Origin: a virus
Direction: 5' to 3' (one strand)
Virus record (IMG/VR): IMGVR_UViG_3300044490_000374
Coordinates: 1-45,456 of that record
DNA length: 45,456 bases
In this document: piece by piece, positions 15,068 to 44,283 of the stretch
How positions within the stretch are numbered: position 1 is the stretch's first letter
Layout: each line of letters starts with the position of its first letter
The notes under the pieces: generated by a model
Database searches by the model: none
What the model saw: the letters and a program-made list of their open reading frames with translations, nothing else
What the model was told of the DNA's origin: nothing
Translations under genes and position numbers: made by a program

Positions 15068-16339
15068 TTAGCTGGCGGCGATCCGGGCGCTGTTGCAAAG
15101 ACACATGCTCTCGGCATGGCGCAGCGCAGTATCCACCTCGGAAATGATCCGCACCCAAGTCTGGTCCGTGGTAAAGGAGGTTCCGGCCACGTTGGACGCC
15201 AGAATCTCGAAGCCCATCCACTGGCCGATCAGCAGCTCAGCCCAGTTGCCGAAGAAAATCTCCGTGCAGTTGGTAGATTCGCCGGTCGTTAAGTTAATGG
15301 GGAGCTGGGTCGTCTGGGCGAAGGGGTAGCCGATGGCGCCGGCGATGATCTCGTCGGTCACCGGCAGCAACGGATATTCGCCCCCGGTATCCCCGGAGTA
15401 GTAGGGATTCCGCAGCTTCTTCAACGCCCGCTTGATGGCCGGATGGAACACGAACCCGAGACGGCCCAGAAGGGCGTTGTCTACGGAAAGTTCGTATTCC
15501 ATATCTACCCAGGGGGCTTGCCAGTTGGGCACCGCGCCGTTGCCGGTTCCCAGGGTCACGGTGTTGATCCCGGAGGTTTGGGCTATGCCCAGCGGTTGAT
15601 TTTCTGAGCCAGACCCCCGGAGGCAGGCCAGGTCAATGGCCAACCCCAGCCGGGTGGCGAAGTCCTGGCGAACCAGAGCTTCCGCCCCGGGGTTGGAGCG
15701 CCGGATCAGCTCGTTATTGATGTAGGTCAAGGCCATAACCTTCTTGGGCACCATCTTGAGCAACCCGGTGGCCAGATCGGAAGCCGTCGGAGGTTCGCCC
15801 TCACCCACCCAATAGGCCGTGGCGCCGCCGGTTTGTTTCACGAAGGTAACCGGAGCGCCCATCAGATTCTCGAGCACCCGGGCACCCATACGGATGCAGA
15901 CCGATTGGGCATTGAAGAGTTCGATGAACTCCGGCATGGCCTGAGCCGGAACCAGGTAGCCCCCCACGGTATCGTCCGTGGTGGACATGGTGCGCTGCTG
16001 TGCGGTCTGCCGGAAGACATCGGCCTCGAATTGGGCATTTTTCCAGTTCTCCAGGGGGACCCCGTTTTTGATGTATTGGATCGCCCGCAGGATGGAGAAC
16101 TTGTCAGCTTCCATTTCCAGGCCGGGGAGTCCCATATATTTCCGGGCCTTGATCTTTTCTTCCGCGGCCTGAAGCCGGGCCTCCAGGCCCTGGTATTTTT
16201 CCTGGAGGGCCGGGAACATTTTGAACATATCGAGCAGTTTGATTACCTGCCCGTCTTCGGTTTTAGTCTCCAGGTTGTTTTGTACCTCCTGGAGCATCCC
16301 CTTGACTTCTTCGAGTTGCACGGCCAGTTCAGGCGGCAT
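15068..16339 (-). CDS. Major capsid protein, HK97 fold
   Basis: This 423-residue protein fits the HK97-type Phage_capsid family. Residues 1-100 form a charged coiled-coil delta/scaffold domain (LEEVKGMLQEVQNNLE, QGLEARLQAAEEKIK), normally removed by the prohead protease. The mature part starts near residue 105-115, with the family phrases VGGYLVPAQAMPEFIEL, VPKKVMALTYINNELIRRS, ALVRQDFATRLGLAID and CLRGSGSENQPLGI, and LGFVFHPAIKRALKKLR later. A terminal segment with FTTDQTWVRIISEVDTALRH is typical. It follows the protease gene directly, so the scaffold is carried as an N-terminal domain rather than as a separate gene. Confidence 0.93.
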   Translation of the reverse strand: MPPELAVQLEEVKGMLQEVQNNLETKTEDGQVIKLLDMFKMFPALQEKYQGLEARLQAAEEKIKARKYMGLPGLEMEADKFSILRAIQYIKNGVPLENWKNAQFEADVFRQTAQQRTMSTTDDTVGGYLVPAQAMPEFIELFNAQSVCIRMGARVLENLMGAPVTFVKQTGGATAYWVGEGEPPTASDLATGLLKMVPKKVMALTYINNELIRRSNPGAEALVRQDFATRLGLAIDLACLRGSGSENQPLGIAQTSGINTVTLGTGNGAVPNWQAPWVDMEYELSVDNALLGRLGFVFHPAIKRALKKLRNPYYSGDTGGEYPLLPVTDEIIAGAIGYPFAQTTQLPINLTTGESTNCTEIFFGNWAELLIGQWMGFEILASNVAGTSFTTDQTWVRIISEVDTALRHAESMCLCNSARIAAS

Positions 16340-34782: not shown

Positions 34783-35202
34783 TTACCTCCTGCAAACCAG
34801 CCGGATTCGGCCGTCGTCTTGTTTCTGTTCACTCACCCGATAGCCCTTCTTCTTGGCTTCCGCCTTGGCCTTCTCGATGCCGTAAGCCTGCTTGAGCTTT
34901 CCCAGCCAAACCCCGTCGTACCGGGTGCCGCCAGATTTCCAGGTCTGGTCAAACTCAGAAATCCAGGCCCGGTAAGAGCCGTCTGCCTGATGCTCAAACC
35001 CGATGTCGTTAGAAGCAGTGCCCACATGCCGCTTCCGGATGATGATATGGGCCTGCTGCGCCCGCCGGTCCCCTTGGTAGCCGTAAAGAGCTTGGGGGGC
35101 CTGGTGGACTTCAACCTTGCCCTGAAACCCTAAACGGCCAAGGGCGGCTACCAGCGCCGCCCCATCCCGGAACTCGATTTGAACTTCGCTGTAATGACTC
35201 AT
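34783..35202 (-). CDS. Ycf35-like DUF1257 protein
   Basis: This 139-residue protein matches the DUF1257 (plastid Ycf35) family. It starts MSHYSEVQIEFRDGAALVAA, has LGFQGKVEVHQ, YGYQGDRRAQQAHIIIRK, NDIGFEHQADGSYRAWISE and the C-terminal DDGRIRLVCRR, all standard family segments. Ycf35 is conserved in red-algal plastids and cyanobacteria, but its function is not settled. The ATG overlaps the stop of the cysteine-cluster gene (ATGA). In this unit it follows a Ycf46-type ATPase and precedes DUF2997. Confidence 0.9.
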   Translation of the reverse strand: MSHYSEVQIEFRDGAALVAALGRLGFQGKVEVHQAPQALYGYQGDRRAQQAHIIIRKRHVGTASNDIGFEHQADGSYRAWISEFDQTWKSGGTRYDGVWLGKLKQAYGIEKAKAEAKKKGYRVSEQKQDDGRIRLVCRR

Positions 35203-35510
35203 ACTGTTGCCTCCTGTTTTTTCTTGAGAGCCTGTGCGAGCTCCCTCTTCATGGGCCCCGGTATAGAGGCAAAATCATAGATTATGCCGTCTTTGATGCA
35301 ACGGGCCCTAATACAGCAGCCCTCCCCGGCCCCTATGAGGTGGGGAAGGACGGTAGCCACGCGGCAGGTTGCCTTGTCCCCTTCAAACGATAGTTCTGGA
35401 CACCGGTCATATTTGCCCAAACCTTTTATCCATGACCGGATGCCAGGGCAGGTTTCGCTTAAGCAGCAATACCCGCAGCGGCAGCAGGGATTGGGAAATT
35501 CGGCACTCAT
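35199..35510 (-). CDS. Cysteine-cluster protein, probable metal or Fe-S binding
   Basis: This 103-residue protein starts MSAEFPNPCCRCGYCCLSET and holds ten or more cysteines: CCRCGYCC, then CPGI, RCPEL, TCRV and GEGCCIRARC. The spacing resembles short bacterial cysteine-cluster proteins thought to bind zinc or an Fe-S cluster. The ATG at 35510 overlaps the ATPase stop (ATGA), and its own stop overlaps the Ycf35-like start. The role is unknown. It takes the place that ferredoxin-like genes hold near Ycf35 genes in some bacteria, but this comparison is from memory and unverified. Confidence 0.8.
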   Translation of the reverse strand: MSAEFPNPCCRCGYCCLSETCPGIRSWIKGLGKYDRCPELSFEGDKATCRVATVLPHLIGAGEGCCIRARCIKDGIIYDFASIPGPMKRELAQALKKKQEATV

Positions 35511-36946
35511 AGCTGCACCCTCCTTGCCCCCCTGGCCTCTTCGGTCACCGTCCGGCTGGCCGGGATGGTCCGATACCTCGCCCACTCCCGCAAGGCATCC
35601 ATCTGGGCTTTCTGGGACCGGGATATGGGGATCACGAAATTGGCCGCGGCGTCCAGGTTTCCGCCGTTATAGGCGGCTTCGATGGCCACCTGCCGGATCT
35701 CTGCGCCGGAGTAGCCGGAAAGACAGGGGACCGTGATCTTGCCGTCGCTTTCTGCCATCATAATGGTGGAGGTTTTGCCCATAAACCGCTTCAGGTAAAT
35801 GTCCAGGATGTCCCATTCCTCTTTAGGTCTCGGGTTATCCACAAAAAAGATTGCATCCCAGCGCCCCATCCGGGTGTATTCCGGGGGCAACTTCGAATAG
35901 TCGTTGCATGTAGCAATTACAAAGACCTCTGAGGTATGATCGTTTAGCCAGGTCAAGAAGGTGCCGCCCACCCGCTGCGTCGTGCCGCCGTCCGTGGAGG
36001 ACCCGCCGACACCGGCCAGCCCTTTCTCGATCTCGTCCAGAAAAAGGATGCAGGGCGCCATGGCGTCCACCACCTTCAGGGCCTCCCGCATTTTGGCTTC
36101 ACTCTCGCCCACCAGGGAGCCAAAGACTTTCCCCAGATTCAGGGAGAGACAAGGCCAGCCCACCTGATTGCCCAGGGCCTTGGCAAAGTGGCTCTTGCCG
36201 GTCCCGGGAACCCCCAGAAGCAGGATACCCCGGAAGGGCAGCCCAGGCCGGCGGTGCTCGAATCGGTTAAGCGTCCAATCCTTAAGATTCTCCAGGCCGC
36301 CCAAGGTCTCAAAGGTTTCGGTGAACTGACTGAACTCCAGAGCCGCAGACTTCTCCACCATCTGCGCCTTCAAGGTGGTGATGGTCTTGGGGTCGAAGCA
36401 CTTGGTCCGCACCAGGGCCAGGGCCAGGGCGTTCTCTGCCTCCTCCCAGGTCAGCCCCTGGGCTGCGTCCAGAACCGTCTCCGAATCGTCCGGCTCGATG
36501 CCGGTGCTTTCCACCAGGCCCGCCAGGATGGTATAAATCTCTTCCCGAGTGGGCAGGGGAAAATCCAGGACCACTATCTCCCGCTCCAGCTCCGGGGGAA
36601 GGGAAGCGTCTGGGGCCAGGATTACCAGGGTAATGCCCTTGGCTTTGTAAATCGGCAGGCTATTTTGAAGTGCCTGAATGACAACCGGCTCCTTAATATG
36701 AAAATGATAGTTGCGGAGAAACCAGACCGCTTTTTCCTTCCCCCGGGCTGCCATGTTGGGGAGGTCGTAAGGGTCTGCCTCCTGCCAATCGGCCCCATTG
36801 CCCATCTCCCGGAAGCCCCGCACTAGGTCCCACTGGTAGGCGGAGCGGCCATTGATCTGGGGGAGTGTGGAGCTGATGAACCGCTCCTGCTCATGGGTCC
36901 GAATCAAAAGTGCCGGGTATCCGGCCTTGACGTAATCGGCGATCAT
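35507..36946 (-). CDS. Ycf46-type AAA ATPase
   Basis: This 479-residue protein has two parts. Residues 1-200 resemble the degenerate N-terminal AAA domain of Ycf46 (YPALLIRTHEQERFI, VILAPDASLPPELEREIVV, LDFPLPTREEIYTIL). Residues 215-450 are a standard AAA module: Walker A GVPGTGKSH, Walker B CILFLDEIEK, the sensor phrase VFVIATCNDYSKLP and the arginine finger segment TRMGRWDAIFFVD. Ycf46 is widespread in cyanobacteria and plastids, and its substrate is unclear; AAA proteins of this class remodel or unfold proteins. The ATG has the shared GGAGGCAAGACG leader. It heads the coupled unit with the cysteine-cluster, Ycf35 and DUF2997 genes. Confidence 0.9.
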   Translation of the reverse strand: MIADYVKAGYPALLIRTHEQERFISSTLPQINGRSAYQWDLVRGFREMGNGADWQEADPYDLPNMAARGKEKAVWFLRNYHFHIKEPVVIQALQNSLPIYKAKGITLVILAPDASLPPELEREIVVLDFPLPTREEIYTILAGLVESTGIEPDDSETVLDAAQGLTWEEAENALALALVRTKCFDPKTITTLKAQMVEKSAALEFSQFTETFETLGGLENLKDWTLNRFEHRRPGLPFRGILLLGVPGTGKSHFAKALGNQVGWPCLSLNLGKVFGSLVGESEAKMREALKVVDAMAPCILFLDEIEKGLAGVGGSSTDGGTTQRVGGTFLTWLNDHTSEVFVIATCNDYSKLPPEYTRMGRWDAIFFVDNPRPKEEWDILDIYLKRFMGKTSTIMMAESDGKITVPCLSGYSGAEIRQVAIEAAYNGGNLDAAANFVIPISRSQKAQMDALREWARYRTIPASRTVTEEARGARRVQL

Positions 36947-37655: not shown

Positions 37656-37690
37656 CTGTTTTTCCTCCAGCAAAGATAGTAGCACAAATT

Positions 37691-37754
37691 GAGCTTGGCG
37701 CTCAAGGGGGGTAACGATCCGCCAGAATCGCACCCCCATTCAGGGCCAAGCTAA
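37691..37754 (-). repeat. 64-base structured repeat, copy A (leader of the 79-residue gene)
   Basis: This copy matches the one at 37999-38062 except at three positions. On the minus strand it folds as nested stems: GCTTGGC/GCCAAGC outside, GGGGGT/ACCCCC in the middle and GCGATTC/GGATCGT inside around a TGGC loop. It lies about 35 bases before the gene start at 37655, in its 5' leader. Confidence 0.75.
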
Positions 37755-37761
37755 CCAAGGA

Positions 37762-37974
37762 TTAAAGGTTGCCCTCTTCGCCTTCCAGTTCCACCCCGGC
37801 CTGGTCTGCCAGATGGAACACCATCTCCATCAGGTTTTCATGCGCCTGCCGGAATTCACCGAAAAATTCTGAAGGAAAGTCGCAGCCATTGGCAACTTCA
37901 AAGGCCCGGTCTTCGATTAGCTCCATCGCCTTCATGATTTGGTCCAGATTTTCTTTTCTGTCTTCGGGGGTCAT
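37762..37974 (-). CDS. Small hypothetical protein
   Basis: This 70-residue, mostly helical acidic protein starts MTPEDRKENLDQIMKAMELI, passes through DRAFEVANGCDFPSEFFGEF and ends LEGEEGNL. The ATG has the shared leader GGAGGTAAGACC, and copy B of the 64-base repeat lies just upstream. It is the first protein gene downstream of the structured-RNA region and probably the first translated gene of the leftward transcript. No family is recognised. Confidence 0.6.
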   Translation of the reverse strand: MTPEDRKENLDQIMKAMELIEDRAFEVANGCDFPSEFFGEFRQAHENLMEMVFHLADQAGVELEGEEGNL

Positions 37975-37998
37975 GGTCTTACCTCCAAGGTTTGATGT

Positions 37999-38062
37999 GA
38001 GCTTGGCGCTCAAGGGGAGTAACGATCCGCCAGAATCGCACCCCCATTCAGAGCCATGCTAA
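37999..38062 (-). repeat. 64-base structured repeat, copy B (leader of the 70-residue gene)
   Basis: This copy has three differences from copy A. The outer stem has one mismatch (GCATGGC/GCCAAGC) and the middle stem one changed pair; the inner stem and loop are identical. It sits at the 3' end of the structured-RNA region, between it and the first gene of the leftward transcript. Confidence 0.75.
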
Positions 38063-38615
38063 AAGTTCAATCCGCACGTCCTCCCCGCCCGGCCCTATTC
38101 CCGCTTTCAATGTTTTCACCGCCCCGGCCTTCCTTCCGCCGCCTTGCGCTACTTGGCTGGTTACCCTGGGGGCCTGCTACGTCGCATCTCCTACGGTTTC
38201 GCTCACTTCCGTCGGGCTTATCCGCTCCGGCTTGAGGTTGCCGGTCTGCCAGGGTTCTTTCAGGTAAACCCACAAACCCTTGAGCTTTCAGGTTCATCGC
38301 CTTTGGCGCTCAGTTCCAGATGGTTTCGGTTCCATCGCCTACCCGCCGTTCCAGATTCGGTTCGTCTGGGCGCCGGGGGAGTTCTCAGGGGACCGCAGTA
38401 CCCCTTGCCTCTCACTTGCATTTTTTCGGGAGTTTCTTTCTCCCCTCACCCCGCCTTTGAACCATTCTCAGGTTTCGGTTTTTCTAGGGTTGGGCTGGCC
38501 TGGTTCGGCTGTTCCGGGTTTTTTTGCTGGGGGCCCATTCCCTGCCCCCGCCCGCCCTGTATGTGGAGAGTTTTTAATCTATAGGCCCGGCCCCCTCGGT
38601 TTGTGATAAGGTGTA
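38063..38615 (-). ncRNA. Candidate large structured RNA of about 550 nt
   Basis: This stretch has no convincing protein on either strand but many local stems: GGGGGC/GCCCCC at 38529-38549, GGGAG/CTCCC at 38428-38444, GGGG/CCCC at 38388-38404, CCAGA/TCTGG at 38351-38369, GATGG/CCATC at 38319-38336, CGCC/GGCG at 38298-38308 inside TGAGC/GCTCA at 38281-38312, AGGGTT/AACCCT at 38251-38280, CCGGC/GCCGG at 38227-38244 and ACGG/CCGT at 38193-38212. It begins just after a strong leftward promoter. The size is in the range of large phage-associated RNAs such as ROOL and GOLLD, but no family match is claimed. A high-GC sequence gives chance stems, so this is a candidate. Confidence 0.45.
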
Positions 38616-38680
38616 CTTGATGATAAGAAGGTAGCATATGCTAACTTTGATGTCAAGAAAAAAGTATCAAGTGCTAACTT
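38608..38680. promoter_or_regulatory. Operator array around the leftward promoter
   Basis: A near-perfect palindrome AAGGTAGCATATGCTAACTT lies at 38628-38647, over the -10 and part of the spacer. An imperfect palindrome AAGTATCAAGTGCTAACTT lies at 38662-38680, upstream of the -35. They share the half-site TGCTAACTT. A weaker related site is at 38608-38627 and shares the ATCAAGT core on the other strand. The arrangement is typical of a repressor-controlled phage promoter. The repressor gene is not seen in the window. Confidence 0.6.
38628..38656 (-). promoter_or_regulatory. Strong sigma70-like leftward promoter
   Basis: On the minus strand a perfect TTGACA (38656-38651) is followed after 17 bases by TACCTT (38633-38628). 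Transcription would start near 38620 and run into the structured region and the early genes. The overlap of the -10 with a palindrome implies repression. Confidence 0.7.
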
Positions 38681-38835: not shown

Positions 38836-39237
38836 ATGAAAGTCCGTGTTTCCTTTTTATTACTGGCCCTATTTCTTCTGTCCATCGCTTCCCCCGCCCC
38901 CGCCATTCCGCCGGAATATGTCGGCACCTGGACTGGAACGGCGAGTCTGGCCACCCAAAATTATGGTTACCTGACCAAAACAGTCACCATAACGGTTACT
39001 TCAAACTCTCAGCAGGTATTCAAAGGGGCTTATAACGTCCAGAATGGCGAACTGACCGGAAATTTGTCCGGGTGTCTTATCGGTAGCAAGGTCTATTTGA
39101 CCGGAAATTATTTTGTGGGAGAGGGAACCGTCTCTTACGATTCCGTGAAGAAAAAATATCAAATTAAGGGGTGCTGGCAATACGTTGGAAGCAGCCCCCC
39201 TTACGCTTATACGGCCTACTTTCATGTATTTAAGTAA
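38836..39237 (+). CDS. Small secreted protein, the only convincing plus-strand gene
   Basis: This 133-residue protein has a clear signal peptide (VRVSFLLLALFLLSIASPAPA, about 23 residues with cleavage after PAPA) and a mature part rich in Thr, Gly and aromatic residues with an alternating strand pattern (YVGTWTGTASL, TVTITVTSNSQ, KVYLTGNYFVG, YTAYFHVFK), so an exported beta-barrel-like fold is likely. Two cysteines (in SGCLIG and KGCWQY) may form a disulfide. AAGGAGT lies eight bases before the ATG. It is transcribed opposite to all neighbours and carries its own hairpin after the stop, features of a phage cargo (moron) gene expressed in the lysogen. Function unknown. Confidence 0.8.
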   Translation: MKVRVSFLLLALFLLSIASPAPAIPPEYVGTWTGTASLATQNYGYLTKTVTITVTSNSQQVFKGAYNVQNGELTGNLSGCLIGSKVYLTGNYFVGEGTVSYDSVKKKYQIKGCWQYVGSSPPYAYTAYFHVFK

Positions 39238-39423: not shown

Positions 39424-40443
39424 TTAAGTTCCCTGTCCAGCAGCCTCCCCCTCTGGCTCATCAAAGAAAGGTTCGGCCACTACATGCACCGCGTAATCGA
39501 ATTCTTTGTAAATCAGGCCTTCACTGGACGGCTGATAACAAAGCATTTCCGACATCCAGGTATCATGCGATACCTTGCGTTTGTGCTTAATGGCGTTGTC
39601 GATTTTAAAGAAGCCTGAGGCGTTCCGGGCCTTTCCCTGGCAGTCTTCCCATAGCGCGCACTCTTCGCAGTTCCGGTCGATGCACTTTTCCATCACGTCA
39701 AAGACGCACCACTTGAAGATGCGGAAGCCCGACTCGTGGGCTTCTTCGATGACCCGATTCATCAGCCCGTAAGCCTTGTGCATGGTGGAGTAGATGTGTG
39801 TGCTGGCCTCGATACCCCTGGCAGTCAAGGGGGTGAGTAGGGCGGCCTCATATATGCTGTCCTCGAATTCGTCTATTTCGTCAAGACGTAACTTTTGGGG
39901 ATGGGGACCACGGACGGATCGGGAAGATGCGGTGAGTATCTGGATTTCGGATTTATTGGTTAATTTGGTTAGGGTCCGCATGGCTTCGCCCACGACCAGA
40001 TGTTGAAACGGGCCGGTGATAAAGTTTTTCATGTGTCCGTACATGCGGAGCGATTGCTCTCCTGACCCCCCCAAGATCTTGGTTTCGCAGCTATCCTTAA
40101 AAACCGACTCTAGCCAGGTTATCAGGGCGCCCGCAAAGGTTTTGCCGCCTGCTCGATTGGCCCAACAGATGCAGTCCAGGTCGTCTTCAAAAAAGGCCGC
40201 GGTTATATAGTCGGCCAAACAATTATGGTCATCGCATACCGAATTGCGGGGTATCTTCATGCCCCAGGAGATCTCACAAAACCGCAGCAATTCTTCGGGG
40301 CTTTTGAAGCCCCGTCGCCGCTTGGCCTCCACCCATTCCCGCCATTGTTGGACCGAATTAGCCGATTTGGGGGCGTACATCTTTGCAACCAGTATGCCAA
40401 AGCGCCTTGAAGGGCAAGGATGATGGCGAAAACAAACTGTCAT
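39424..40443 (-). CDS. Terminase large subunit, ATPase part (nuclease part encoded separately)
   Basis: This protein of up to 339 residues (an ATG at 40380 gives 318) is the packaging ATPase. Walker A is ANRAGGKT near residue 96-102, Walker B is LRLDEIDE near 185-192 with the catalytic Glu, and the coupling segment TASSRSVRGPHP precedes it. A cysteine set (CIDRNCEECALWEDCQ near residue 255) is present, as in several Mu-like large terminases. It ends after SSEGLIYKEFDYAVHVV, exactly where the RNase H-like nuclease domain should begin. The matching nuclease is a separate gene at 41241-41729, upstream in transcription. No good ribosome site distinguishes the two starts. Confidence 0.88.
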   Translation of the reverse strand: MTVCFRHHPCPSRRFGILVAKMYAPKSANSVQQWREWVEAKRRRGFKSPEELLRFCEISWGMKIPRNSVCDDHNCLADYITAAFFEDDLDCICWANRAGGKTFAGALITWLESVFKDSCETKILGGSGEQSLRMYGHMKNFITGPFQHLVVGEAMRTLTKLTNKSEIQILTASSRSVRGPHPQKLRLDEIDEFEDSIYEAALLTPLTARGIEASTHIYSTMHKAYGLMNRVIEEAHESGFRIFKWCVFDVMEKCIDRNCEECALWEDCQGKARNASGFFKIDNAIKHKRKVSHDTWMSEMLCYQPSSEGLIYKEFDYAVHVVAEPFFDEPEGEAAGQGT

Positions 40444-40716: not shown

Positions 40717-41244
40717 TTACCGTAATCCCAATAAATTTACTCCTCGCCCCAGTGCTTTCATTACCAGCAGCTCAAATTCCAGGGTAAATTCATCATCATC
40801 AAAGGGGCTGGTCTCGCCGATTAGGATTTGCTTAGGCACCTCTTTCAACAGACCCACCCGCTGCAAAAATTCAGTATATTGCTTGGTCAGCTCGGCCGCC
40901 GTGCGCATTGCCCCTATCTTGCCGTTTTCGGAGCGGAAGGTTTGGTAGTCTCTCAAAGCTGCGCGGATGCTGGTTTCATAAAACCTGATTCGAGCTTTCA
41001 CGACCGCGGTCTGGTCAACATCGATGGGGATTTCCCGGTCAAGCCTCCTGCCGTCCTGTAGGTCTCGGTCAATCATCCGAGGGTTGATATTATATCGAAC
41101 TGCGAGTTCGTCTATCTTCATGCCGGATTCATAAAGAACCATAACCTCTTTAATCCGCTGCATCCGCTTGGCAGAAATCCCCTTGACCCCCAGGACCTCT
41201 TCTGTTTTGCTTATGGGGGGTGGCGCTATCGTCAAGTGCGTCAT
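40717..41244 (-). CDS. HTH protein, possible small terminase subunit
   Basis: This 175-residue protein has a helix-turn-helix near residue 45 (SGMKIDELAVRYNINPRMID) preceded by KRMQRIKEVMVLYE, and a long helical middle (ARIRFYETSIRAALRDYQ, MRTAAELTKQYTEFLQRVG). The C-terminus is acidic. Small terminases combine an N-terminal DNA-binding domain with helices for oligomerisation and a tail that contacts the large subunit. The position between the nuclease and ATPase genes of the split large subunit fits. The ATG at 41244 overlaps the nuclease stop (ATGA). A transcription regulator remains possible. Confidence 0.6.
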   Translation of the reverse strand: MTHLTIAPPPISKTEEVLGVKGISAKRMQRIKEVMVLYESGMKIDELAVRYNINPRMIDRDLQDGRRLDREIPIDVDQTAVVKARIRFYETSIRAALRDYQTFRSENGKIGAMRTAAELTKQYTEFLQRVGLLKEVPKQILIGETSPFDDDEFTLEFELLVMKALGRGVNLLGLR

Positions 41245-41729
41245 TTTGCCCACCCCGCGAAAAAGTACCGGAGCGCATCCAGGGCGTGGTGGTCCCCGGA
41301 GCCGGGCTCATGTTGGAGGTACAGCCTGATCTCCCGAATAAGATTCCTGCAGCGGTGGCCGATGATTAAACAGGGAACCCCATCGTACCGACGCTCCAGC
41401 CACAGTTTAACTAGTTCCTGGCCCACCTTCACCGGGAGGCGCGGGCCTTTGATTTCGACGCCCAACTCTTCGCCCAAAAGCACCAGGCGCTCCGGGTTGG
41501 CCGGATCACCATAACCGCCCCTGAATGGCGGGTAACCCCGTTCTTCATGTTGCTTCTTGATCGCCCTGGCGTTCTCTGGGGTTGTGCGCATGGTCTCGTA
41601 ATACTCATCGATGACCACTACCCGCTCGCCCTTTTCGACTGGCATGACCCAGAGGCCGGCAAAAGGGTTAGTATAGCCGGGGTCAACGGAGAGATAGAGG
41701 CCTTGCGCCGGTTCGTAATGATATTTCAT
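41241..41729 (-). CDS. Terminase large subunit, nuclease part (stand-alone RNase H-like domain)
   Basis: This 162-residue protein is a terminase nuclease domain by itself. It starts MKYHYEPAQGLYLSVDPGYT (Asp16, as in the SVDPGYTNP strand of RNase H-like domains), followed by FAGLWV and VVVIDEYYET, then GGYGDPANPERL (Asp75) and the end DHHALDALRYFFAGW (Asp146, Asp151). These acidic residues match the two-metal site that cuts concatemers. The ATPase part that normally precedes it is downstream in another gene. Both genes lie in one operon, with a possible small terminase between them. The ATG overlaps the preceding stop (ATGA). Confidence 0.88.
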   Translation of the reverse strand: MKYHYEPAQGLYLSVDPGYTNPFAGLWVMPVEKGERVVVIDEYYETMRTTPENARAIKKQHEERGYPPFRGGYGDPANPERLVLLGEELGVEIKGPRLPVKVGQELVKLWLERRYDGVPCLIIGHRCRNLIREIRLYLQHEPGSGDHHALDALRYFFAGWAK

Positions 41730-42103: not shown

Positions 42104-42860
42104 TCTCTGCCCCCTCGACTTTCATCAACAGCTCCAATCCTGCCCGAGCCAAATCCATCAGCTTGAGAAATGCGGCGGCGCTATTCTTGATCTGGCACTG
42201 TTTCTTGATCTTCACCACCAAGTCAAAAAAGGCCTCGTAGGTTTTTAGGTTTGCCAAGTAAACAGTATCAGCAGCAAAGGCGATGGCCGTTTCTTTCAAC
42301 AAGGCGTCCAGGTCTTGCAGCTCTTCCGGTAGGAACATGAAATTGACGATCTTGTAGCGGGTCCGGTAATCTTGCAGGCCCGAAAACTTGATTGATTCCA
42401 TGGCATTTAGGGTTTCAGAGTCAAGACCAGCATAAACCTTCTCCGCCATGCTCTGGATACTCTCCCATAATTCTTTTAAGAGGGACAGGTCGTCCTGACC
42501 GCTGATGGCGTTGTGCGAAAGCTGAATGCTTATTTGCTCGTCCTTATTTTTTTCTCCAGCCACAACCAGCACAAGGACTCTCTCAATACCTGCCTGCACT
42601 GCGGCCTTGATCCGATGGTTGCCTGACAAAACAATAAGCGGGCCTTCTTTTGTTTCACGGTAACAGAGAGGCATCGATGACAGCCCACCATCGCGTTTAA
42701 TGTTCGCAACAAGCGCGCCGTATTGTTCCGCTTTCATATACCGAGCGTTTTTTTCTAATAATTTTATACTATCTGGGGCTACGATTTCTATTTTACAAGG
42801 AAATTCCCCGGCGAGCTTTTCGTTCAGCCGATTTATTATTTCTGGTATTTCTTTATCCAT
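42096..42860 (-). CDS. ParB-domain protein, phage type
   Basis: This 254-residue protein has a ParB/sulfiredoxin-like N-terminal domain: APDSIKLLEKNARYMKAEQY, LVANIKRDGGLSSMPLCY and LIVLSGNHRIKAAVQAGI (the GNHR motif of the nucleotide-binding pocket). The C-terminal half is helical and differs from partition ParB. Such proteins are frequent next to phage terminase and DNA-modification genes. It overlaps the methyltransferase-like gene by 25 bases. The ATG at 42860 with GAGGTAA upstream is preferred to one six codons earlier. It is distinct from the ParB at 30374-31405. Confidence 0.8.
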   Translation of the reverse strand: MDKEIPEIINRLNEKLAGEFPCKIEIVAPDSIKLLEKNARYMKAEQYGALVANIKRDGGLSSMPLCYRETKEGPLIVLSGNHRIKAAVQAGIERVLVLVVAGEKNKDEQISIQLSHNAISGQDDLSLLKELWESIQSMAEKVYAGLDSETLNAMESIKFSGLQDYRTRYKIVNFMFLPEELQDLDALLKETAIAFAADTVYLANLKTYEAFFDLVVKIKKQCQIKNSAAAFLKLMDLARAGLELLMKVEGAENG

Positions 42861-44152
42861 GTTGATATTACCTCGCATAATTTGATAGTTCCTAATTGGC
42901 CCTTATATTTTAATCGTGGCGGGGATTGTTTCCTTTCAATCAACTCAAACAACGGTCTGTATTTCATCGAAACCGGCTTATCGGTAAATACAGAAGTCAA
43001 ACAGTAGTTAAATTCTTGCAGGTGTTTTTCTTCAAGATATCTCTTCATTTCGTCCGATTTAATTACCAACAGAAGCAGCTTCGCAAGACGGTTGTATTTG
43101 GTAGAGGGAACCACGAAATCGCACAAAAGATTTATTCTGCGCCAATCTTTTGCCCGATCAAAAATCCTATTGAATCCGACGAAGCCAATTATTTTACTAT
43201 CTACTAAAATAGCCAGCGCAGTTTCGGCTATAGAGGGGATGCCCACCGTTTTCCCTAAATATAAATCCCTATAATAATTCATCGTTACTGAATCGATGGG
43301 CGCTATGCTTATTTGGGCCGATTGATCGATTTCGTCCTCGTCTTTTAATAAATCAAAATATTTTTTGTTCGAACCTATCCGCCACCTTGTTATGGCCCTG
43401 CGAAATTCTAAATTCGAATAAATAAATATCGAGTGAAATTGAATTTTTTGAGCGATCATCACTGGATCACCCATATCTTGTCTCGGCGAGTCGGTAAACA
43501 ATACATATTCTTGTTGGGCCATATTGTGGATAGCCTCTTCTCTCCTTTCATTTGTAAGCATTTCGTATTTGGGAGACTCCCATCGAAAGGCTTTATGCAG
43601 ACGATTATATAATTTTTCATACCCGCCTTGATATGTTGGCAGAAACCCTAACAATATTGCATCTTTTAAAGGAGGGTCCTTGAACAAATCAAATACGTCT
43701 ATCGTGGTATATTCATGTATCCGAATCTTTTCCTTCCAGCCCAGGAGGAGGCTTTTGTTTTGATTAAAATATTCAATGAAATTATCTTTATAATGTTTCC
43801 ACATCCTTTTTCGGAATTCGGTATCTTGTTGATAATGCTTAATCAAAGAGCTGAACATCAAGATAATGGTGGCCTTATCGTCTATGGATTTCATGTGGTC
43901 TTTTAAGAAAAATAATTCCTCATCTATTGGTTCAAGCATCATGTCTCTTCCCAATAAACAATTTCCTAAGACGGATGAATAGAGGGCTATGTCGTTCGCC
44001 TGCAAATAATAGTCTTTCGAATAAGTCGAGATGATTTGCTCCGTGGTAAAATTTCCACAACAGCCATCGATGATCTTTCTTCCATTAAAAATATGGGCGT
44101 TGTTTCCAAAAAATTTTCTGACTGCGTGTGGGATAGCCCCGACGAAGCTCAT
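42836..44152 (-). CDS. Putative adenine methyltransferase with GNAT/Mom-like tail, antirestriction type
   Basis: This protein of about 438 residues starts MSFVGAIPHAVRKFFG. IIDGCCGNFTTEQII near residue 26 and LQANDIALYSSVLGNCLLG near residue 50 look like D12-type adenine methyltransferase motifs, and this family is named putative antirestriction adenine methyltransferase in annotations I remember. The C-terminal 130 residues (IIGFVGFNRIFDRAKDW, NLLCDFVVPSTKYNRLAKLL) read like a GNAT fold, as in Mom-type adenine modification. It would act on phage DNA to avoid restriction. The gene is much richer in A+T than its surroundings, which suggests recent transfer. The reaction is an inference. Confidence 0.65.
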   Translation of the reverse strand: MSFVGAIPHAVRKFFGNNAHIFNGRKIIDGCCGNFTTEQIISTYSKDYYLQANDIALYSSVLGNCLLGRDMMLEPIDEELFFLKDHMKSIDDKATIILMFSSLIKHYQQDTEFRKRMWKHYKDNFIEYFNQNKSLLLGWKEKIRIHEYTTIDVFDLFKDPPLKDAILLGFLPTYQGGYEKLYNRLHKAFRWESPKYEMLTNERREEAIHNMAQQEYVLFTDSPRQDMGDPVMIAQKIQFHSIFIYSNLEFRRAITRWRIGSNKKYFDLLKDEDEIDQSAQISIAPIDSVTMNYYRDLYLGKTVGIPSIAETALAILVDSKIIGFVGFNRIFDRAKDWRRINLLCDFVVPSTKYNRLAKLLLLVIKSDEMKRYLEEKHLQEFNYCLTSVFTDKPVSMKYRPLFELIERKQSPPRLKYKGQLGTIKLCEVISTWIKKYQK

Positions 44153-44215
44153 AAAAAATATCTCGCTATTAAATTTGAAGGCAATCAGGGGGGTCTTTTG
44201 CACCCCCCTAATCGC

Positions 44216-44283
44216 TGGAGCGGATCGGGGGAGTCGAACCCCCGGCATCAGGTGGTCCCCAATGCCCCCGCCTGGGTCTCCGC
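44216..44283 (-). tRNA. tRNA-like element (degenerate or partial)
   Basis: On the minus strand a perfect T arm (GGGGG TTCGACT CCCCC) is followed by GATCCGC, T and CCA. The 5' end GCGGA pairs with TCCGC for five of seven acceptor positions. The 68-base total is short and no normal D arm or seven-base anticodon loop forms; instead a CAGGCGG/CCACCTG stem is possible. It may be a decayed tRNA, a tRNA-like RNA or a former integration site. Confidence 0.35.

Follow-up and report, generated by a model that had tools for sequence, protein, structure and literature searches.

The described RNAs nearest in kind to the one reported here are GOLLD and ROOL. GOLLD, which is >800 nt in many of its members, is an ornate RNA of unknown function that is encoded by phages or prophages and includes pseudoknots, while ROOL (659 nt for env-120) is phage-linked, has multiple pseudoknots and has no known partner; both form RNA-only cages (PMC12286853). 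A homo-oligomeric nanocage is characteristic of GOLLD, and an ordered RNA cage together with high abundance in vivo of ROOL. The RNA described below has been placed as a new class among the large structured phage RNAs. The phi29 packaging RNA (pRNA) is approximately 174 nt long. The HK022 put and lambda-type early leader RNAs lie directly downstream of a repressor-controlled early promoter, and the put sites are short, with two hairpins.

The window (the whole 45.5-kb virus record, IMGVR_UViG_3300044490_000374) carries genes for the portal, capsid, terminase and replication, nearly all of which lie on the minus strand. A first-pass annotation had proposed that a stretch with no credible protein encodes a large structured non-coding RNA directly behind a regulated promoter. 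This is now supported, as the homologues contain compensating changes and no reading frame is conserved among them. Both the stems and the promoter-like site exist, though the strand needed correction, as all of them lie on the minus strand and the RNA runs from approximately 38620 down to approximately 37998, flanked by the ORF for the terminase ATPase (39424-40443, minus) and by a small ORF (37762-37974, minus). The 64-base repeat that had been taken simply as the end point of the RNA belongs to the homologous unit as a constant 3' component and, hence, the element extends to approximately 37998. The 5' start (approximately 38620) was estimated from the promoter position and the 3' edge is the end of a GAGC/GCUC hairpin, giving a length of approximately 620 nt in the window and up to approximately 700 nt in relatives. 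The element and the sites on either side of it are:

38628..38656, minus strand, promoter-like site TTGACA-17-TACCTT, consensus matches only
38632..38643, no strand, operator-like perfect palindrome TAGCATATGCTA of 12 bp, between the -35 and -10
37998..38620, minus strand, large structured non-coding RNA, 31 distinct homologues and covariation against a null
37972..37986, minus strand, Shine-Dalgarno GGAGG (37986-37982) with the start codon ATG (37974-37972), first downstream ORF

Homologues were collected by searching IMG/VR with the flanking terminase and AAA ATPase, and species genomes with the terminase, which yielded >100 loci. By blastn, the intergenic region shares 59-74 % identity among relatives, and a profile search recovered at least 31 non-redundant full-length homologues (approximately 570-700 nt without the leader) with a mean pairwise identity of 57 %. 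They occupy the equivalent position in related phages and on MAG contigs from Desulfobacterota; the phages are uncultivated, and the MAGs are titled Deltaproteobacteria, Syntrophales or Syntrophobacterales. With a covariance model of the core, the RNA was found in 7 of the 29 genomes in one class and, outside that class, in a single additional genome out of 395 from the phylum; some genomes have two or three copies. The core model also matches twice in several homologues, with the second match approximately 200-300 nt downstream (L117:5521-5647, L120:6424-6551 and L020:3976-4165), and the pseudoknot module seems to have been duplicated within these RNAs. A nucleotide search of named phages and plasmids returned no copy, only short 33-base chance matches, and there were no close relatives of the flanking proteins among named phages. 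No ORF is conserved in the RNA region: the longest ORFs differ in frame and strand among homologues, and the frame that begins at the one shared ATG is 5 to 99 codons long, where that ATG is present at all.

The many local stems first noted in the window are present, but their number alone is within chance. The minimum free energy of the single sequence (558 nt) is -185.3 kcal/mol compared to -191.3 +/- 6.4 for shuffles (z +0.93), with 84 of 100 shuffles folding as well as the native sequence, and this measure was not significant and was rejected as evidence for structure. Taken alone, it would fit GC-rich intergenic DNA with chance stems, or a misread coding region. However, that explanation is refuted by the covariation, as compensatory changes are far above both phylogenetic and shuffled nulls and there is no conserved frame, and we give it virtually no weight. 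Because a hand-drawn structure can flatter itself, RNAalifold was allowed free choice on real and null alignments. The full-length alignment gave -137.9 kcal/mol versus -18.5 +/- 3.9 (best null -25.1) for 25 phylogeny-preserving alignments in which the tree and substitutions were kept and the pairing broken, and each of three subdomain blocks was better than 100 of 100 nulls. In the core (31 sequences, nine helices including two pseudoknots), 76 % of cells pair, versus 31-56 % when the partners are slid, and there are 124 double changes against 48 +/- 6 in shuffles, a number reached by 0 of 500. The 3' module alignment (32 sequences) has 93.7 % of its cells paired, versus 36-51 % with the partner strand slid, and 71 double changes compare with 26 +/- 4, again reached in 0 of 500 shuffles.

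Pair-by-pair covariation has limited power at full length (best E approximately 0.07). Of its 11 best pairs, 8 were largely canonical, and several of these were adjacent. Two pairs of the 3' module lie above all 200 nulls. When RNAalifold was applied to alignment A4 alone, only the PK1 helix (S1) was recovered because mis-aligned rows blur the other helices, which are visible in the fixed-structure counts and block tests. The covariation check proposed at the outset found compensating changes in the proposed stems beyond shuffled and phylogenetic nulls, and an excess over phylogenetic expectation is what marks a conserved structured RNA. What has been conserved is a minus-strand RNA with numerous helices that covary and several H-type pseudoknots. 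We judge the RNA to be real because of this conservation and not because of the stem count, and it is a large, previously uncatalogued viral RNA found in many related undescribed viruses of Desulfobacterota (deltaproteobacterial) bacteria.

Five stems named by the first-pass annotation, GGGGGC/GCCCCC (PK0), CCAGA/UCUGG (Hh), UGAGC/GCUCA (H3), GGGUU/AACCC (PK1) and CCGGC/GCCGG (PK2), recur with compensating changes, and three of the five form part of H-type pseudoknots. The parts of the body, from 5' to 3', are:

38516..38549, minus strand, PK0, H-type pseudoknot, from a descriptor search and not a statistical test
38429..38444, minus strand, local hairpin GGAG/CUCC, 24 double-change cells, 77 % paired
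38379..38412, minus strand, helix GAG/CUC enclosing a variable loop, 26 double-change cells, 83 % paired
38342..38377, minus strand, H1, CCCG/CGGG (CCUG/CAGG in others), 32 double-change cells, 91 % paired
38319..38336, minus strand, H2, hairpin GAUGG-AACCGAAA-CCAUC, stem varies among homologues
38281..38312, minus strand, H3, UGAGC/GCUCA (homologues UCAGC/GCUGA, CAAGC/GCUUG, CGGG/CCCG, UAUGGC/GCCAUA)
38252..38280, minus strand, PK1, H-type pseudoknot, S1 95 % paired, CG15/AU7/GC4 at one pair
38227..38244, minus strand, PK2, pseudoknot helix CCGGC (38244-38240)/GCCGG (38231-38227), conserved pairing
38076..38225, minus strand, 3' domain closed by long-range helices that are weak in the window

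PK0 is made up of S1, GGGGGC (38549-38544)/GCCCCC (38534-38529), and S2, GGG (38542-38540)/CCC (38518-38516), with an A-rich linker. In homologues, S1 is replaced by GGACC/GGUCC, UGGCC/GGCCA or ACCCC/GGGGU, and S2 by GGGGAG/CUCCCC or GGC/GCC. H1 encloses an inner hairpin, CCAGA-UCUGG (38369-38365/38355-38351). The loop of H2, ACCGA (ACCGAAA), is nearly invariant, and the stem that presents it may be GAUGG/CCAUC, GACGG/CCGUC, GCAG/CUGC or GCAC/GUG. PK1 includes S1, AGG (38280-38278)/CCU (38264-38262), and S2, GGGUU (38271-38267)/AACCC (38256-38252), with a U-rich upstream loop (L1) and an A-rich downstream loop (L3); its upstream strand and the hairpin loop co-vary (CGG/CCG, CAG/CUG, CGUG/CACG and AAGG/CCUU), and it is absent from L040, L066 and L067. 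The partner hairpin of PK2 (GGGG/CCCC), though weak in the window, is strong in homologues. The 3' domain is closed in the window by GCG/CGU (38225-38223/38078-38076) and ACGG/CGGG (38212-38209/38091-38088), which correspond to CCGGCCC/GGGCCGG, CCUGGAG/CUCCAGG or CCAGCGG/CCGCUGG in homologues, and it contains a conserved GGAAGGAAGG stretch (38137-38128).

The RNA ends in the 3' module, which is found twice in the window:

37998..38061, minus strand, 3' module copy 1 (64-base repeat), GCAUGGC pairs with the loop of GAGC-GCCAA-GCUC with one mismatch
37690..37755, minus strand, 3' module copy 2, 60.4 bits, alone between two small genes

In copy 1, an additional hairpin, GGGGGUGCGA...UCGUUACUCCCC, lies between the upstream strand and the GAGC/GCUC hairpin, and in copy 2 the outer pairing, GCUUGGC/GCCAAGC, is perfect. 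Among homologues the upstream strand varies (GCAUGGC, GUGAGGC, UUUUGGC, GUAGGGC and others), pairing with the loop of the GAGC-loop-GCUC hairpin, and most copies score 60-77 bits on the RNA strand versus 15-34 on the opposite strand. The loop is 5 nt in most, 6 nt in L006 and 7 nt in L141. As the loop lengthens with the pairing, a pseudoknot is favoured, and two mutually exclusive folds were considered less likely. A GGAGG-type Shine-Dalgarno sequence and start codon follow the module after approximately 8-35 nt in nearly all homologues. Two copies are also found in L037, L064 and L119, and in L064 and L119 the 5' leader and 3' module are kept and the body is missing. Since the module occurs without the body (window copy 2, L037, L064 and L119), the two are separable.

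The promoter-like site includes TTGACA at 38656-38651, a 17 bp spacer and TACCTT at 38633-38628. The site that had been called a strong promoter is present, but its strength was overstated: though the -35 is perfect, the -10 matches TATAAT at only 3 of 6 positions and the site is not listed by a consensus scan. The nearest relatives have TTGACA-17-TAACCT (L066) and TTGACA-17-TAACTA (L067) at this position, and a conserved TTAGGC-17-TATTAT is found at the corresponding position in other homologues. The palindrome TAGCATATGCTA is unique in the window (one site at <=3 mismatches versus 0.04 expected). Because L066 and L067 carry different palindromes at the equivalent spot between the -35 and -10, it is suggested that the palindrome is a repressor site and that a phage repressor may control the RNA promoter. 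A small ORF on the plus strand with a signal-peptide-like start (38836-39237) lies between the terminase gene and this promoter; it has no Pfam match and was not noticed in the relatives examined.

The RNA heads a co-directional operon, and was upstream of co-directional genes in all cases examined, usually directly behind an ATPase-only terminase gene. The first downstream gene varies between phages while the RNA is retained, L066-type phages have the terminase and a different downstream operon in place of the AAA operon, and L141 has the AAA operon and the RNA and no adjacent terminase. Hence, the RNA is independent of its neighbours. A riboswitch for one downstream gene was rejected, as that gene differs among phages. 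A toxin-antitoxin or defence context was also rejected, the small ORFs having no PADLOC match save one meaningless weak one. Elsewhere in the window, a DUF1257 protein gene adjoins the AAA ATPase gene (34783-35202 and 35507-36946, both on the minus strand), and a phage DAM-like domain is fused with a GNAT-like domain (42836-44248, minus).

The large terminase is split, with an RNaseH-like nuclease ORF (41241-41729, minus) upstream of the ATPase ORF, and this permuted order is conserved in relatives. An intron in the terminase gene was rejected, as the missing nuclease domain is encoded upstream. Like phi29 pRNA, the new RNA is a phage RNA tied to a packaging ATPase that is without a functional nuclease domain (cf. 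PMC7672431). Its usual place directly behind the ATPase-only gene, with the nuclease as a separate ORF, could thus point to a functional pRNA analogue working with the adjacent ATPase. We consider this very improbable, as the RNA is not a constant companion of the packaging ATPase: seven terminase homologues with 55-67 % identity (L009, L109, L110, L114, L118, L121 and L124) are without it, and in L141 it is present without an adjacent terminase. It also has its own promoter, is co-directional with downstream non-packaging genes and has no Rfam pRNA match. As some terminase relatives are without it, the RNA is not essential to the terminase packaging gene. In the MAG contigs L109, L110, L118 and L124, the terminase ATPase gene is paired with a homologue of window 40717-41253 without the RNA or the other tested flanking phage genes, in some cases beside bacterial-looking genes, and this pair may be a remnant or a domesticated cassette.

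The caution of the first-pass annotation in not assigning the RNA to ROOL or GOLLD was well placed. Rfam searches returned only noise for the RNA region at E up to 10, with no match to GOLLD, ROOL, OLE, pRNA or introns, and, at E up to 3, no family matched any of 12 other homologous loci. As a positive control, the same search detects the group I intron in the AAA gene of L006 (14847-15754), which includes an HNH-like ORF (15144-15686) and splits this phage ATPase gene after residue 304. The new RNA might also be an outlying member of a described large RNA or ribozyme class (GOLLD, ROOL, OLE or a group I/II intron) that Rfam has missed, which its size, phage location and many pseudoknots would fit, as GOLLD and ROOL are phage RNAs (PMC12286853). 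We hold this to be most unlikely given the failure to match while the intron control was detected; for an intron, there is also no split exon, the terminase nuclease ORF lying upstream of the ATPase ORF.

The new RNA resembles GOLLD in being large, pseudoknotted and phage-encoded, in a record with portal, capsid and terminase genes. It differs in having no covariance-model match, in preceding an operon and in ending in a module before a ribosome-binding site, and whereas GOLLD is often near tRNA genes or islands, there is no tRNA or tmRNA in the window. Like ROOL, it is a phage-borne RNA of approximately 600 nt with several pseudoknots; unlike ROOL, it has no covariance-model match and no tRNA island, and belongs to another host group (Desulfobacterota). 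It shares with HK022 put and the lambda-type leaders a place directly downstream of a putative repressor-controlled promoter but, at approximately 620 nt with several pseudoknots, is a different kind of structure from put.

The preferred reading, to which we assign a probability of roughly 0.55, is that this is a large phage-encoded structured non-coding RNA of a new class, probably trans-acting, with an operator-bearing promoter, which is parted from the mRNA at the 3' module. A phage repressor would control the promoter, the RNA would be transcribed together with the downstream genes, and the 3' module would mark the point at which it is cleaved from the mRNA, or kept apart from it by folding, and would leave the following start site accessible. 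The body, once released, would work in trans during infection, serving a structural role or binding protein in a way comparable to GOLLD and ROOL. Trans activity, processing and the existence of a partner are inferences in this reading.

No convincing terminator was found in the window between the RNA and the genes behind it and, for this reason, the RNA may never exist as a free molecule. It could instead serve the downstream operon as a giant 5' leader that acts in cis, exerting processive antitermination or translation control on its own transcript only, a possibility that we take seriously though we do not favour it. Its position right behind an operator-bearing promoter and ahead of a long co-directional gene run is what such a leader would have, as is a 3' module just upstream of a ribosome-binding site that is repeated before the next gene. 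However, the RNA is kept while the downstream genes differ widely, and the loss of the body in L064 and L119, with leader and module kept, indicates that the body is dispensable for the operon. The antitermination leaders known so far are also much shorter, and the size and multi-pseudoknot architecture exceed the needs of known leaders.

If the trans-acting reading holds, a further and distinctly tentative suggestion is that the family represents another class of giant phage RNA, separate from GOLLD and ROOL, which works as a free and possibly self-assembling RNA machine and is freed from the operon transcript by a reusable pseudoknot module that would insulate the next gene as well. The family brings its own architecture, a promoter-like site, a constant operon position and ready covariance models, and the natural body-less variants (L064 and L119), together with the repeated 3' module, allow body and module to be tested separately. 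The large structured phage RNAs described so far are few, with GOLLD and ROOL foremost among them, and the new family provides an independent case on the role of giant phage RNAs.
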